This document shows positions 6,820 through 11,984 of a DNA stretch of 51,069 nucleotides, in pieces. Source of the DNA: Eubacterium sp. (lineage in GTDB: Bacteria > Bacillota > Clostridia > Lachnospirales > Lachnospiraceae). The stretch is taken from contig JALEKC010000006.1 in NCBI GenBank assembly GCA_022769325.1, positions 1 to 51,069 on the forward strand. The letters are read 5' to 3'. Every line of letters starts with the position of its first letter. Within the stretch, counting starts at the first letter, position 1. The position numbers were made by a program, and so were the translations under genes. The notes under the pieces are model-generated. The model did no database searches, was not told where the DNA came from, and worked only from the letters and a program-made list of their open reading frames with translations.

Positions 6820-8202
6820 ATGTATAAAATCGATTTTAGTCACCCGGGAAAAGCGCATTTTATCGGCATAGGCGGTATTAGTATGAGTGGATTTGCAGAA
6901 CTTTTGCACACCATGGGATTTACCATTACCGGTTCCGACCGAGCCGCTTCTAAAATTACCAGACGTCTTGAAAGTCTCGGGATAAATGTAATATATGAAC
7001 AAGTTGCCGGAAATATAACAAAAGACGTGGATTTTGTTGTATATACCGCGGCCATTTCCGAAGACAATCCGGAATTTGTCCAGGCAAAGGAACTGGGGAT
7101 TCCTATGATGGAACGGGCTTCCATGGTGGGACAGGTCATGAAAAATTACTCCACGGCCATCGCTGTGGCCGGAACCCATGGCAAGACTTCCACCACTTCC
7201 ATCGCTTCTCATATATTGATGGAGGCCAATCTGGACCCCACCATTTCTGTCGGCGGCATTCTTCCTGCCATCCACGGAAATATGCGTGTAGGAAACTCTC
7301 CTACCTTTATCACGGAGGCCTGTGAATATACCAATAGTTTTTTGAAATTTCATCCTACCATTGGAATTATACTTAATATAGAAGCAGAACATTTGGATTT
7401 TTTCCGTGATTTAGCCGATGTTCGTCACAGTTTTCACGAATTCGCCAAACTGCTTCCCACTGATGGCACTTTGATTATCAATGCCGATATTGAAAATTAT
7501 GAAGAAATCACAAAGGACCTTTCCTGCAACGTACTTACCTATTCTGTAAATTCCACAGATGCCGACTTTACCGCCACAGATATTTCCTATGACGAGTTCG
7601 GATGCGGAGAATTTACGGTGGTCCAATCCGGTGTCCCGGGAGCTCATTACAAATTAAATATCGTTGGCAAACACAACATTTCCAATACGCTGGCCACACT
7701 AGCTTTATCCTCGCTTTTTGACATCCCGGAAAAAACCATCCAGGCAGGCTTACTCAAATATAAAGGAACAGAGCGCCGCTTTGAATACAAAGGAACATAT
7801 AACGGAGCCGCCGTTATCGATGACTATGCGCATCACCCAACGGAAATCCGCGCTACTTTGACATCCGCGCAAAATTACCCGCACCGTTCCCTTTACGTGG
7901 CTTTTCAACCTCATACCTATTCCAGAACCAAAAACTTTTTGGAAGATTTTGCCGAAGCTTTGTCCCTTGCTGACCATGTCATCCTGGCAGACATCTATGC
8001 TGCCCGGGAAAAAGACCCGGGAGATATTTCTTCCAATGATATCGTAGAGAGATTGAAAAAGTTAGGAACAGATGCCACATATTTGGGAGATTTTGACAGC
8101 ATCAAAAAATATTTGAAAAAAAATTTAATGCACGATGACTTGTTAATAACTATGGGTGCCGGAAACATTGTAGAAGTTGGAGAAGACCTTGTCAAGTGCT
8201 AA
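6820..8202 (+). CDS. murC: UDP-N-acetylmuramate--L-alanine ligase
   Basis: MurC adds L-Ala to UDP-MurNAc, the first peptide step of peptidoglycan precursor synthesis, in the cytoplasm. The 460-residue protein begins with the Rossmann motif FIGIGGISMSG (residues 14-24). It then has the Mur ligase P-loop AGTHGKTST (117-125), TEACEYTNSFL, the NIEAEHLDFF Mg-binding segment and DDYAHHPTEI (334-343), all diagnostic of MurC. The ATG follows AAAGGATGG. It is transcribed away from glgC and ends in the hairpin/DnaA-box region. Confidence 0.97.
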   Translation: MYKIDFSHPGKAHFIGIGGISMSGFAELLHTMGFTITGSDRAASKITRRLESLGINVIYEQVAGNITKDVDFVVYTAAISEDNPEFVQAKELGIPMMERASMVGQVMKNYSTAIAVAGTHGKTSTTSIASHILMEANLDPTISVGGILPAIHGNMRVGNSPTFITEACEYTNSFLKFHPTIGIILNIEAEHLDFFRDLADVRHSFHEFAKLLPTDGTLIINADIENYEEITKDLSCNVLTYSVNSTDADFTATDISYDEFGCGEFTVVQSGVPGAHYKLNIVGKHNISNTLATLALSSLFDIPEKTIQAGLLKYKGTERRFEYKGTYNGAAVIDDYAHHPTEIRATLTSAQNYPHRSLYVAFQPHTYSRTKNFLEDFAEALSLADHVILADIYAAREKDPGDISSNDIVERLKKLGTDATYLGDFDSIKKYLKKNLMHDDLLITMGAGNIVEVGEDLVKC

Positions 8203-8203
8203 C

Positions 8204-8404
8204 TTATCCACATTATCCACAGCCTTATCAACATTCAGTAGAAAACAAAGGCTGTGGATATTTTTATTCCCCTCATTTTTTGTGAATAACTTTTTTTCTG
8301 GTTTAATTTCGGGGAAACCCTGAAATTGCGTGTGTGAACATTTGTTTTTCACAAGCTGTAGAATGTCCTATGCAGAGTTATCCACATTATCCACATTATC
8401 CACA
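8204..8404. other. DnaA-box cluster upstream of the replication-initiation operon
   Basis: This 350-bp gap between murC and the dnaD-like gene holds five perfect TTATCCACA boxes on the plus strand: 8204-8212 and 8213-8221 in tandem, then 8378-8386, 8387-8395 and 8396-8404 in tandem. TTATTCACA is present on the minus strand (8289-8281). Near matches are TTATCAACA (8225-8233) and ATATCCACA (minus, 8261-8253). All six fit the bacterial consensus TTATNCACA. An AT-rich stretch (about 8405-8475) with the downstream promoter follows. Box identity is read directly. A role in DnaA-dependent regulation, DnaA titration or origin function is inference. Confidence 0.85.
8215..8267 (+). terminator. Intrinsic terminator of murC overlapping DnaA boxes
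   Basis: ATCCACAGCCTT (8215-8226) pairs perfectly with AAGGCTGTGGAT (8248-8259) and is followed by ATTTTTATT. Both arms contain box-like DnaA sequences, so DnaA binding and termination could interact. Confidence 0.75.
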
Positions 8405-8441
8405 TCTTCTTTTCTACTGAAAACGTACATTTTTTTGCCTA

Positions 8442-8470
8442 TTTACAGATTTCAATTTTTATCATATAAT
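8442..8470 (+). promoter_or_regulatory. Sigma-A promoter of the dnaD-dnaI-prs operon
   Basis: TTTACA (8442-8447), a 17-bp spacer and TATAAT (8465-8470), starting 38 bp after the last DnaA box. Transcription should begin near 8477. This argues against the in-frame GTG at 8476 as the start codon and for the ATG at 8554. Confidence 0.8.
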
Positions 8471-8553
8471 TCAAGGTGCCCCATGACAAACTTGTAGTGG
8501 AAAAGCCAACTCTGAGAGGACAGGGGCATATCAAAAAGGGGGACTCAACCAAG

Positions 8554-9729
8554 ATGAGTTTTTCATTAACGACACAATTTTCACAAGAATATACATATGT
8601 ACCAAATGCTTTTATCGACAATTATATGCCCTCTGCCAACGGAAGTTTTGTGAAGGTATATTTATATCTTCTCCGACAGATGGGGGCTGCCACTCCGGTG
8701 TTGACCGTGGAAATGATGGCAGACATGCTTTCCAATACGGAAGCCGATATTCTCCGCGCCCTACGGTATTGGAAAAAGCAGGGGCTTTTGGAAATCGAAG
8801 AACGGGATGGCGAGATTACCAGACTCTGTCTTCTTCCATTTGAGGAATCTGCCACCACATCGGAAGCTGTTGTTACGGATGCCAATATCATCCCACCCCA
8901 GCCCGGGCCAAAGAATTCATCCATGTCTTCTGTAGCCGCCGTGACTCCGGAGCACGTTTCTGCACCATCGGAAAGGATTTCTTCTCTCACAGAAACAGTT
9001 TCTCTGTCGGAGACGACTGTCACACCTTCAGAGGCCGTCACTTTGCGAGAATTACCACCACGTCAGAATTACACCCCGCTTATGGCAGAGGCATTGAAAA
9101 AGGACCAGGAAATCAATTCCTGCCTCACTGCAGTGGAAAGTCTTCTGGGTACTACCATGTCCGATGCCCATATGCAGTTAATTTTGTATTTAATGTCGGA
9201 TCTTAGTTTCTCTAGAGAGCTGATTATCACTTTATATGAAACTGCTCTTGCCAGAGACAAGAGAAGTTCTAGGTACATCGAAGCCATTGCTTTGGATTGG
9301 GCTAAGAAGGGGATTCACACCCCGGAGGAGGCCATGGCAGAATCCAATCAATTTCAAGGAACCTATAAGGTCATTGCCACGGCTCTGGGCATCAAACGGC
9401 CTCTTGCCCCGGCAGAACGTGCTATCATTGACCAGTTTGCCCAATTTCATTTTTCCGACGAAATATTGGCAGAAGCCTGTAACCGAACAGTATTGCAGTC
9501 CGGCGATACCAATCTGCATTATACGGCAAGTATTTTGGCGGATTGGCACAAAAAGGGTGTTCGGACTCTGGAAGATATCAAAGAATGTGATAAATCCTAC
9601 CATCGGAAGAAACAGGCCACTGCCAAAAAGAAATCCAGTGGAACACGGAATCAATTTCAGAATTTTCCGCAACGGGAATATAGTCAGTCCGACTATGACA
9701 ATTTGGAAAAGCAACTTCTGCAGTCCTAA
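8554..9729 (+). CDS. DnaD-domain replication initiation protein (DnaB/DnaD family)
   Basis: Firmicute DnaD/DnaB proteins help remodel origin DNA and load the replicative helicase. The chosen ATG gives 391 residues. The N-terminal winged-helix part begins MSFSLTTQFSQEYTYVPNAF and contains ANGSFVKVYLYLLRQM. A Ser/Thr/Pro-rich linker (about residues 105-185) follows. Two C-terminal DnaD-like modules end with the same signature, ALDWAKKGIHTPEEA and ILADWHKKGVRTLEDI. The SD (AAGGGGG) is about 13 nt from this ATG, longer than usual. The helicase loader follows after 31 bp. It could be called dnaB or dnaD in Bacillus nomenclature, so no symbol is given. Confidence 0.88.
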   Translation: MSFSLTTQFSQEYTYVPNAFIDNYMPSANGSFVKVYLYLLRQMGAATPVLTVEMMADMLSNTEADILRALRYWKKQGLLEIEERDGEITRLCLLPFEESATTSEAVVTDANIIPPQPGPKNSSMSSVAAVTPEHVSAPSERISSLTETVSLSETTVTPSEAVTLRELPPRQNYTPLMAEALKKDQEINSCLTAVESLLGTTMSDAHMQLILYLMSDLSFSRELIITLYETALARDKRSSRYIEAIALDWAKKGIHTPEEAMAESNQFQGTYKVIATALGIKRPLAPAERAIIDQFAQFHFSDEILAEACNRTVLQSGDTNLHYTASILADWHKKGVRTLEDIKECDKSYHRKKQATAKKKSSGTRNQFQNFPQREYSQSDYDNLEKQLLQS

Positions 9730-9760: not shown

Positions 9761-10777
9761 ATGCAGTTATTAAATGAGCAGTTCAGTTTTTTATATGCCG
9801 ATTATGATAAAATTCAATTACAGAACAATCGCATTCACCGGATGCGGCAAAAGGAAATCCGCGAGAAGATTCCCGGCTACCAAAAATTGGAGAATTCCAT
9901 GCAGGACAAGTCTCTGGCCGCTGCCCGTGCAGCTTTGGAAGGGACTTCCGACAGCATTCAGCAGTTAAAGGAGGACACAGAGGACATTTCTCAAAAAAAG
10001 AAGGCCCTTTTGCAGCAATATGGTTATCCGGAAGATTATCTGGACCCCATTTACTCTTGCCCGGATTGCAAAGATACCGGATATATCGGAACCAAAAAAT
10101 GCCATTGTTTTCAGAAACGAATCGTGGAATATCTGTATGAGCAGTCCAATATTAAAGATATTTTGGAAGATGAAAATTTTTCTCATTTTAATATTACCTA
10201 TTATCCGGATGACTATGTAGAAGAAACCACCGGACTGACCCCTCGGGATAACATCCGCCGGATCCTTACTACCGCCCATGCTTTTTGCGATAATTTCGGG
10301 ACTTCGGAGCAAAATCTTTTGTTCTATGGAAACACAGGTGTTGGGAAAACTTTTTTGACACATTGCATTGCAAAAGAACTTTTATCCCAATCTTATACCG
10401 TTGTATACTTGACTTCTATCGGTCTTTTTGATATTTTAGAGAAGAACAAGTTTGATCGAGAGTTAAGTTCCTTGGAAAAAAGTACAACGGTTTCCTATAT
10501 TATGAACTGTGATCTTCTTATTTTAGACGACTTGGGAACAGAATTAACCAACAGCTTTACTGCTTCCCAATTATATCAGGTTATTGACAGTCGTCTGGTT
10601 CATAAAAAATCCACCATCATCTCGACGAATTTATCCTTTGATGATTTGCGGGAGCAATACAGTGAGCGCATCTTTTCCCGTCTCACAAGTGGATATACGC
10701 TTCTTAAGGTAACCGGCGAAGACATTCGTCTGAAAAAAGTTATTTCTGCCAGACAGATTTCATCTTCTGGTTTATAA
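9761..10777 (+). CDS. dnaI: Replicative helicase loader (DnaC/DnaI-type AAA+ ATPase)
   Basis: This protein loads the hexameric replicative helicase at the origin. It has 338 residues. The N-terminal domain has a coiled segment (about 15-85) and a zinc-ribbon-like pattern C100-x2-C103 and C114-x-C116, as in Bacillus DnaI. The AAA+ domain has Walker A GNTGVGKT (190-197), Walker B LLILDD (252-257), a sensor-1-like IISTN and an arginine-containing SERIFSRL. SD AAGAGGAAACC lies before the ATG. It follows the DnaD-domain gene and precedes prs by 40 bp. The gene name follows Bacillus usage; many Clostridia annotations call it DnaC. Confidence 0.9.
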   Translation: MQLLNEQFSFLYADYDKIQLQNNRIHRMRQKEIREKIPGYQKLENSMQDKSLAAARAALEGTSDSIQQLKEDTEDISQKKKALLQQYGYPEDYLDPIYSCPDCKDTGYIGTKKCHCFQKRIVEYLYEQSNIKDILEDENFSHFNITYYPDDYVEETTGLTPRDNIRRILTTAHAFCDNFGTSEQNLLFYGNTGVGKTFLTHCIAKELLSQSYTVVYLTSIGLFDILEKNKFDRELSSLEKSTTVSYIMNCDLLILDDLGTELTNSFTASQLYQVIDSRLVHKKSTIISTNLSFDDLREQYSERIFSRLTSGYTLLKVTGEDIRLKKVISARQISSSGL

Positions 10778-10817
10778 TAAAAATTAATCAATCACATTTA
10801 TTTTGGAGGAGACAGTA

Positions 10818-11984
10818 ATGAGTCAAGACAATTTTGCAGACATTATTCCTTACGGAGATCTGGGTATCATTGCCCTGGAAAGCAGTCGTTCGATTGGAGA
10901 AAAGGTAGACAATTTTATTTCATCCTGGAGAAATGAAAGCCGCAACGATGAGGAGTCCATTCATTTTACCAGTTATAAGAAAAACTCTTATCTGATTGAT
11001 GCTGTTTGCCCTCGTTTTGGTTCCGGTGAAGCCAAAGGTCTCTTGAACGAATCCGTACGTGGCAAAGATTTGTACATTTTATTGGATGTATGTAATCACA
11101 GTCTTACATATAAGGTATGTGGACAAATCAACCATATGTCGCCGGACGACCACTATCAGGATTTGAAACGTATCATCGCCGCAGTCAGTGGAAAAGCCAG
11201 ACGAATCACTGTCATTATGCCATTTTTGTACGAAGGACGCCAGCACAAACGTAGTTCCAGAGAATCTCTCGACTGTGCACTGGCTCTTCAGGAATTGACC
11301 AAAATGGGCGTGGAAAGCATTATTACCTTTGATGCCCACGATCCCCGTGTACAAAATGCCATTCCTCTTAATACATTTGAGACCATTCAGCCAACTTATC
11401 AATTCATCAAGGCAATGCTCAAAAATGTACCTGATATCCACATGGATCCAAAACACCTGATGATTATCAGCCCGGATGAGGGCGCTACCGGTCGTGCCAT
11501 TTATTTTGCCGGTGTAGCCGGTGTTGATATGGGTATGTTTTACAAGCGTCGCGACTATACAAAAATTGTAGAAGGTCGCAATCCTATTGTAGCTCATGAA
11601 TTTCTGGGTGCTGATGTAGAGGGAAAAGATGTCGTTGTCATTGATGACATGATTTCCTCGGGTGAAAGTATGATTGATGTTGCTACAGAGTTGAAGCGCA
11701 GAAAGGCTAACCGTATCTTTGTAGCTTCCACCTTCGGCCTTTTCACCAACGGACTAGAGAAGTTTGACAAAGCTTTCGAAAGCGGCCTCATTTATCGTGT
11801 CATGACCACCAACCTGGTCTATCAGCCGGAAGAACTTCTTTCAAAAGAATATTATATCAACGTTGACATGAGCAAATACATCGCTTTATTAATCAACACC
11901 TTAAATCACGATGCCTCCATCGCAAACCTGTTGGATCCATCGGAAAGAATACAGAAGATTTTGAAAAAATACGGACAACAATAA
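10818..11984 (+). CDS. prs: Ribose-phosphate pyrophosphokinase, long clostridial form
   Basis: Prs makes PRPP from ribose-5-phosphate and ATP for nucleotide, His and Trp synthesis. The 388-residue product is longer than the usual ~315. The ATP/ribose segment FDAHDPRVQNAIP (171-183) and the PRPP loop VVVIDDMISSGES (272-284) are clear. The extra length is an extended N-terminal region. An in-frame TTG 15 nt upstream is part of the SD (GGAGGAG), so ATG 10818 is the start. It is likely co-transcribed with the two replication genes, tying PRPP supply to replication initiation. Confidence 0.93.
   Translation: MSQDNFADIIPYGDLGIIALESSRSIGEKVDNFISSWRNESRNDEESIHFTSYKKNSYLIDAVCPRFGSGEAKGLLNESVRGKDLYILLDVCNHSLTYKVCGQINHMSPDDHYQDLKRIIAAVSGKARRITVIMPFLYEGRQHKRSSRESLDCALALQELTKMGVESIITFDAHDPRVQNAIPLNTFETIQPTYQFIKAMLKNVPDIHMDPKHLMIISPDEGATGRAIYFAGVAGVDMGMFYKRRDYTKIVEGRNPIVAHEFLGADVEGKDVVVIDDMISSGESMIDVATELKRRKANRIFVASTFGLFTNGLEKFDKAFESGLIYRVMTTNLVYQPEELLSKEYYINVDMSKYIALLINTLNHDASIANLLDPSERIQKILKKYGQQ

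Follow-up and report, generated by a model that had tools for sequence, protein, structure and literature searches.

The window analysed here, meaning the whole stretch of 51,069 nt from contig JALEKC010000006.1 of Eubacterium sp. (Lachnospiraceae), contains a cluster of DnaA boxes at positions 8204–8404, between the murC gene and an operon encoding a DnaD-like protein and a helicase loader. The assembly to which it belongs is an 87% complete metagenome-assembled genome (MAG) of 2,284,606 bp in 193 contigs. The upstream neighbour, murC (6820..8202, + strand), is an open reading frame (ORF) with Pfam Mur_ligase domains. The dnaD-like gene, with a DnaB_2/DnaD domain (8554..9729, + strand; PF07261, E-value = 1.3e-36, scanned from 8476), starts at ATG 8554 behind a ribosome-binding site AAGGGGGA (8536..8543, + strand), the longer listed ORF beginning at GTG 8476. 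It is followed on the same strand by a DnaC/DnaI-like AAA+ helicase-loader gene (9761..10777; PF01695, PF00308) and a ribose-phosphate pyrophosphokinase-like gene (10803..11984; PF13793). The promoter that the earlier note on this DNA had placed after the boxes corresponds to a predicted sigma-A-type promoter of near-consensus sequence, TTTACA-17-TATAAT (8442..8470, + strand; 11 of 12 consensus matches).

Five perfect boxes, TTATCCACA, were found on the + strand at 8204, 8213, 8378, 8387 and 8396, and one TTATTCACA box on the − strand, all as the earlier note had reported. Two near-matches that it had not listed, TTATCAACA on the + strand at 8225 and ATATCCACA on the − strand at 8253, bring the total in 201 bp to eight sites, five perfect and three with one mismatch. 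The distal cluster consists of two perfect boxes in 9-bp tandem (8204..8221, + strand), which end 252 and 243 bp before the −10 element, and is followed by the TTATCAACA box (8225..8233, + strand; ending 231 bp before the −10 element), by the ATATCCACA site (8253..8261, − strand), which forms the 3′ arm of a terminator and may be mere hairpin symmetry, and by the TTATTCACA box (8281..8289, − strand), the offset of which (+77) is kept in several close relatives. In the proximal cluster, three perfect boxes in 9-bp tandem (8378..8404, + strand) end 78, 69 and 60 bp before the −10 element.

The window has no perfect box outside the cluster, and 8 of its 26 sites with at most one mismatch fall inside it. 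The window-wide count is only modestly above chance (shuffles: mean 17.0, sd 3.9; 2 of 100 as high); therefore, it is the clustering and not the total number that is notable. In the entire assembly, 54 perfect boxes were counted (26 on the + and 28 on the − strand) versus 21 for the backwards pattern, and 5 of the 54 belong to the cluster. Equally dense groups, which the earlier note had suggested looking for, are not common: among the matches listed there was one other tight group, C181:1286-1355, with three perfect boxes. Box scans, the promoter call and the intergenic regions of relatives together indicate that DnaA boxes near the promoter exceed chance.

Conservation and Promoter Register in Lachnospiraceae

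Fifteen named loci, with titles referring to Roseburia, Lachnoclostridium, Eubacterium, Eubacteriaceae or Lachnospiraceae, and Clostridiales or Clostridia, were compared first. In most of them the box offsets recur almost to the base (0, +9, +21, minus-strand +77, +174, +183 and +192), each locus carrying a subset; as exceptions, L006 and L008 have the pattern only in part, and L013, on a short contig, has neither a box nor a murC match. Most close relatives retain the TTATCAACA box at the +21 offset relative to box 1. A further 79 regions came from 79 genomes of the window's family, drawn non-randomly from 296 (mostly the best loader matches and one-contig genomes). With the named loci and the window, this gave 95 sequences, 91 of which show murC beside dnaD; L114, L006, L008 and L013 (no murC match) and L147 (start-codon parsing) were left out, and 90 regions were analysed, the identical intergenic regions of L078 and L011 being one region counted twice.

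At least one perfect box was present in 85 of the 90 murC–dnaD intergenic regions and at least two in 63, while at least three boxes with no more than one mismatch were found in 73. Perfect boxes pointed towards dnaD 215 times and away from it once, and the backwards control also gave one match. The tandem boxes upstream of the dnaD operon, the conservation of which had been left to comparison with related genomes, are thus retained in relatives. In short-type regions, the intergenic DNA measures about 130 bp and carries 1–3 boxes (at most one mismatch, in the rows compared) without the distal array, which was lost, or never gained, in this type; the register to the promoter described below is mostly kept.

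The position of the −10 element was assessed in the 88 regions longer than 60 bp. An extended −10 element (TG-N-TATAAT type) with a score of at least 13 was found in 79 of them (90%) versus 12% of dinucleotide shuffles, a frequency indicating that the predicted promoters of the dnaD regions are real. Forward-strand boxes with at most one mismatch were then located relative to this element. A box end was found 74–79 bp upstream in 57 of the 79 regions; 2000 random rotations gave 14.4 regions on average (sd 3.4) and never more than 27. The 3′ ends of the boxes peak at 50–55, 59–61, 65–70, 74–79 and 86–88 bp before the −10 element; the bins 62–64, 71–73 and 83–85 were empty, bin 80–82 contained two regions, and bin 56–58 contained seven. 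The TG extension of the −10 element is missing in the window and in its closest relatives (L003, L004, L005, L007, L009 and L017), which for this reason stand outside the 79; the window nevertheless matches the register, with box ends at 60, 69 and 78 bp. The boxes thus hold fixed positions relative to the promoter, and their anchoring to the −10 element is supported by the rotation test. When one perfect box per genome was considered (68 genomes), a 9-bp period was detected (R = 0.58). The core promoter is nearly free of boxes: 307 forward boxes were counted upstream, 3 on the core promoter and 3 between the −10 element and dnaD (13.2, 4.1 and 5.9 kb scanned, respectively), the corresponding numbers of minus-strand boxes at the same threshold being 40, 1 and 3.

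Distribution of the Tandem Boxes

Thirty relatives with one or few contigs contained 44 perfect 18-bp tandems, overlapping pairs included; 25 of the 30 carried at least one, and the backwards control gave none. Twenty-four of these pairs belong to the murC–dnaD region, 18 to a second box element considered below, one lies between dnaA and dnaN, and one elsewhere; half of the assignments were made by nearness to the loader gene and half (22 each) by reading the locus.

The outgroup consisted of one genome with a loader match from each of 40 other clostridial families, in which about 3.2 kb upstream was scanned. Neither murC nor a perfect tandem was found there in any of the 40, while dnaD was recognised in 36, with a short match in several and no recognition in the remaining 4. 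A pair of forward boxes (at most one mismatch, within 30 bp) was present in 84 of the 90 Lachnospiraceae regions versus 3 of the 40 other families, where any pair in the 3.2 kb was counted; none of the three was a perfect tandem, and L211 and L212 had one pair each at up to one mismatch. Because the 40 other families lack both murC at this place and the perfect tandem, the arrangement is specific to Lachnospiraceae as far as sampled. It should be noted that L217 (genome G326, of another family) was considered as a case of the same feature and rejected: its five perfect boxes lie 560–850 bp before the dnaD match, in a different intergenic region, and do not form a 9-bp tandem. In the same genome (L224:1728-2015), five perfect boxes of one direction lie around the space that separates a FAD-dependent oxidoreductase-like ORF from a DUF1858-like one (both named by eye); a dnaD-like match is a few hundred bp away.

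Proposed Control of the dnaD Operon and Alternative Explanations

The cluster is probably a family-specific, DnaA-responsive control region of the dnaD–helicase loader operon, as judged from the comparison of sequences. Taken together, the one-way tandems, their anchoring to the promoter, the free core promoter and the downstream replication initiation operon speak for DnaA as a transcriptional regulator here, and conservation, polarity and the fixed register lend strong comparative support to the feedback control of helicase loading suggested in the earlier note. DnaA would bind cooperatively to two same-direction tandem arrays, the distal (8204–8233) and the proximal (8378–8404), and the bound protein would set transcription from the promoter at 8442–8470; the supply of DnaD and the loader would thereby be tied to the amount of active DnaA. 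The distal array may add co-operativity via looping or filament contact, and DnaA bound at the cluster would be withdrawn from circulation, with titration as a side effect, which probably also occurs here given the origin-proximal location and the box density. What the comparison demonstrates is constraint on the sequence, in the boxes with their conservation, polarity and register, in their restriction to the family (against 40 sampled others) and in the terminator; we infer DnaA occupancy, looping, feedback and the sign of regulation from these patterns. Activation appears somewhat likelier than repression, because the proximal boxes lie mostly 50–90 bp upstream in a fixed register and the core promoter is nearly box-free.

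Several points weigh against this interpretation. A perfect box is lacking in 5 of the 90 regions (L083, L101, L117, L145 and L155), and L117 and L155 have no box even at one mismatch. These five are natural loss variants; L145 and L083 retain degenerate boxes, and L117 has almost no intergenic DNA. The distal cluster is dispensable, since short-type regions lack it. The best period equals the length of the box, 9 bp, and not the helical turn of 10.5 bp (R = 0.17); the comb of box positions therefore derives partly from tandem repetition. The regions share ancestry and are not independent points, and the −10 elements were picked by score and not by mapping. In addition, the near-consensus promoter of the window (11 of 12) suits activator-dependent expression less than the weaker −35 hexamers of most of its relatives do.

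An alternative with which this interpretation partly overlaps in probability, being a variant of it, is that DnaA acts as a repressor, a filament growing from the tandem boxes to the promoter and shutting off the dnaD–loader operon in a negative feedback like dnaA autorepression. The strength of the window's promoter would suit such a role; the distribution of forward boxes (3 core and 3 downstream against 307 upstream) and the −35 hexamers, which match just 2–4 of 6 positions in 71 of 75 regions, as expected for activated promoters, make repression a tentative possibility. A second alternative, which we regard as unlikely, is that the cluster serves as a high-affinity sink or a datA/DARS-like site altering the nucleotide state of DnaA, with the dnaD promoter a mere neighbour. 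Here chromosomal position is relevant. The own assembly (87% complete) gave no match to the dnaA profile PF08299; consequently, the origin was located in relatives, 30 of which had one dnaA match each. In 19 of 20 one-contig relatives, with contigs taken as circular, the dnaD locus lies 85–891 kb from dnaA, that is, 2.3–19.5% of the chromosome (median 7.3%), the twentieth, G269, having no listed loader position. The density of perfect boxes and this proximity favour titration, as does the early initiation that follows removal of six DnaA-box clusters outside oriC in B. subtilis (excerpts of PMC5295017). A sink, however, needs neither a single polarity (215:1) nor a fixed −10 register nor a free core promoter, and short-type regions mostly hold the register with few boxes. 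The titration site proposed in the earlier note agrees with the box density and with a location within 20% of the chromosome from dnaA.

The suggestion of a secondary origin element fared worse, and a secondary or hidden replication origin at murC–dnaD is very improbable. In its favour, the tandem boxes are followed by an AT-rich stretch, and a TTCTAC motif after the boxes in the window's close kin faintly resembles the first triplets of a DnaA-trio. Against it stands the GC skew of the one-contig genome G295, in which dnaA lies at 2.046 Mb and the dnaD locus at 2.94 Mb: the skew is negative up to 1.84 Mb, positive from 2.06 to 4.13 Mb and negative again at 4.35 Mb, so that the switch brackets dnaA, and there is no switch at the cluster (0.177 before, 0.206 after), as sampled coarsely in this single genome (20 samples of 12 kb). 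Since the switch sits at dnaA, 0.89 Mb away, the dnaD cluster does not appear to be the origin. Within the window, likewise, no switch was found, the skew being negative throughout. A strict DnaA-trio (at least four triplets) was found in none of the 90 dnaD regions, by an insensitive test that was positive in only 5 of 30 dnaA 3′ regions, and in a looser test the dnaD regions were not separable from shuffles. The TTCTACTG motif (8412..8419, + strand), nearly unchanged among close relatives, was considered as a DnaA-trio and rejected, as it follows the last box only in close-kin rows and the trio counts do not exceed those of shuffles. As an observation in its own right, close kin of the window carry a near-invariant TTCTACTG/TTCTACAG between the last box and the −35 element, where the other aligned rows do not show it. 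Finally, the boxes might have arisen by chance and as a side product of the murC terminator hairpin. The intrinsic terminator (8214..8266, + strand) has a stem at 8214–8226/8248–8260 followed by a T tract, with box 2 in its 5′ arm; the hairpin 8214–8260 has a folding energy of −23 kcal/mol (z = −3.2), and a simple terminator scan did not list it. In an alignment of 13 sequences (12 distinct), the window among them, 99.2% of the cells of the 11-pair stem are paired, and two pairs differ at both positions; pairing is lost when the partners are slid, and the observed values were reached by 20 of 500 column shuffles. The two arms of this covarying hairpin are box 2 and the ATATCCACA site on the − strand, in agreement with the earlier claim that boxes are built into the stem, and part of the distal cluster is under two constraints, box and terminator stem. 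This covers 2 of the 8 sites. The three proximal boxes stand over 110 bp beyond the hairpin, and a proximal cluster occurs in long- and short-type regions alike, which already refutes the by-product explanation for the proximal cluster and makes it scarcely credible for the whole. An effect of DnaA binding on murC read-through is possible and at present hypothetical.

Known Systems and a Second DnaA-Box Element

DnaA-controlled promoters include those of B. subtilis dnaA and E. coli dnaA and nrdAB. The dnaD region resembles these and others, such as B. subtilis sda, in that a sigma-A-type promoter is preceded by several DnaA boxes; it differs in its target, the dnaD–helicase loader operon, and in the one-way 9-bp tandems. 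In E. coli, datA, DARS1 and DARS2 carry DnaA boxes away from oriC, as does the dnaD cluster, which in contrast is locked to a promoter. The role of DnaA as a transcription factor and the existence of DnaA-box clusters (DBCs) outside oriC are already described in the excerpts of PMC4447404 and PMC5295017. The present cluster has the traits of the oriC-proximal DBCs of B. subtilis, namely, dense boxes in an origin-proximal location outside oriC; it is characterised by a single polarity, a fixed register to one promoter and family-wide conservation. Table 1 of PMC4447404, listing the top 20 in vitro DnaA regions of B. subtilis, does not name dnaD, dnaB or dnaI. The bipartite oriC of C. difficile (excerpts of PMC7561715) likewise combines a DnaA-box cluster with subsequent AT-rich DNA, whereas at the dnaD cluster the insensitive strict trio test gave no match and no skew switch was found, and the cluster lies at the above distance from dnaA in 19 one-contig relatives. 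According to the same excerpts, YabA and several other DnaA regulators have no identified homologues in C. difficile, and the regulation of DnaA activity is stated to be unknown there. A search of the open-access literature, which leaves out most subscription papers, yielded no account of DnaA boxes in front of dnaD. Control of the dnaD–loader operon by a DnaA array would thus be an unreported example within a known class, with an unusually clean architecture. In Lachnospiraceae gut bacteria, the likely DnaA sites at a fixed distance before the loader genes suggest that the initiator also governs how much of its own helpers is made. A family-wide DnaA array at a helicase-loader promoter would offer a concrete, testable initiator–loader feedback in a related family of gut commensals, and the natural series of long-type regions, short-type regions and the five regions without a perfect box could be used to study transcriptional control by DnaA.

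A second conserved element combines a single box with a tandem pair that starts 53 bp further along (offsets 0, 53 and 62) and was present in 17 of 17 loci read (L001:1286-1355, L218–L223, L228, L231–L233 and L235–L240). The copy in the window's own genome is the tight group on C181 (L001:1286-1355), with offsets 0, 52 and 61. Its contexts differ: the gene that comes after it is hpf (near secA), a DUF1858-like gene or trmB, the names except hpf and secA having been assigned by eye. A GAAC-N4-GTT[CT] stretch, which we take to resemble the LexA operator, follows the tandem pair at similar spacing in 9 of the 17 copies (L219–L223, L228, L233, L238 and L239), and TGTCGAA, presumably similar to the Spo0A box, occurs in 7 of the 17, both figures being raw counts. 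Both stretches are lacking in the own-genome copy. In the 90 dnaD regions, the LexA-like motif gave 1 site versus 9 in the backwards control, and the Spo0A-like TGTCGAA gave 17 sites in 17 regions versus 5, too weak a difference to use. Lachnospiraceae may, tentatively, have a dedicated two-target DnaA circuit composed of the dnaD–loader promoter and this portable box-53-tandem element, with LexA-like or Spo0A-like motifs after some copies; if so, the initiator would set its own loading partners together with an output linked to DNA damage or sporulation. In some copies of the second element, TATAAT is found about 62 bp after the pair, and in L231 (G029) and L232 (G111) two perfect tandem pairs lie 97 bp apart at the hpf element.
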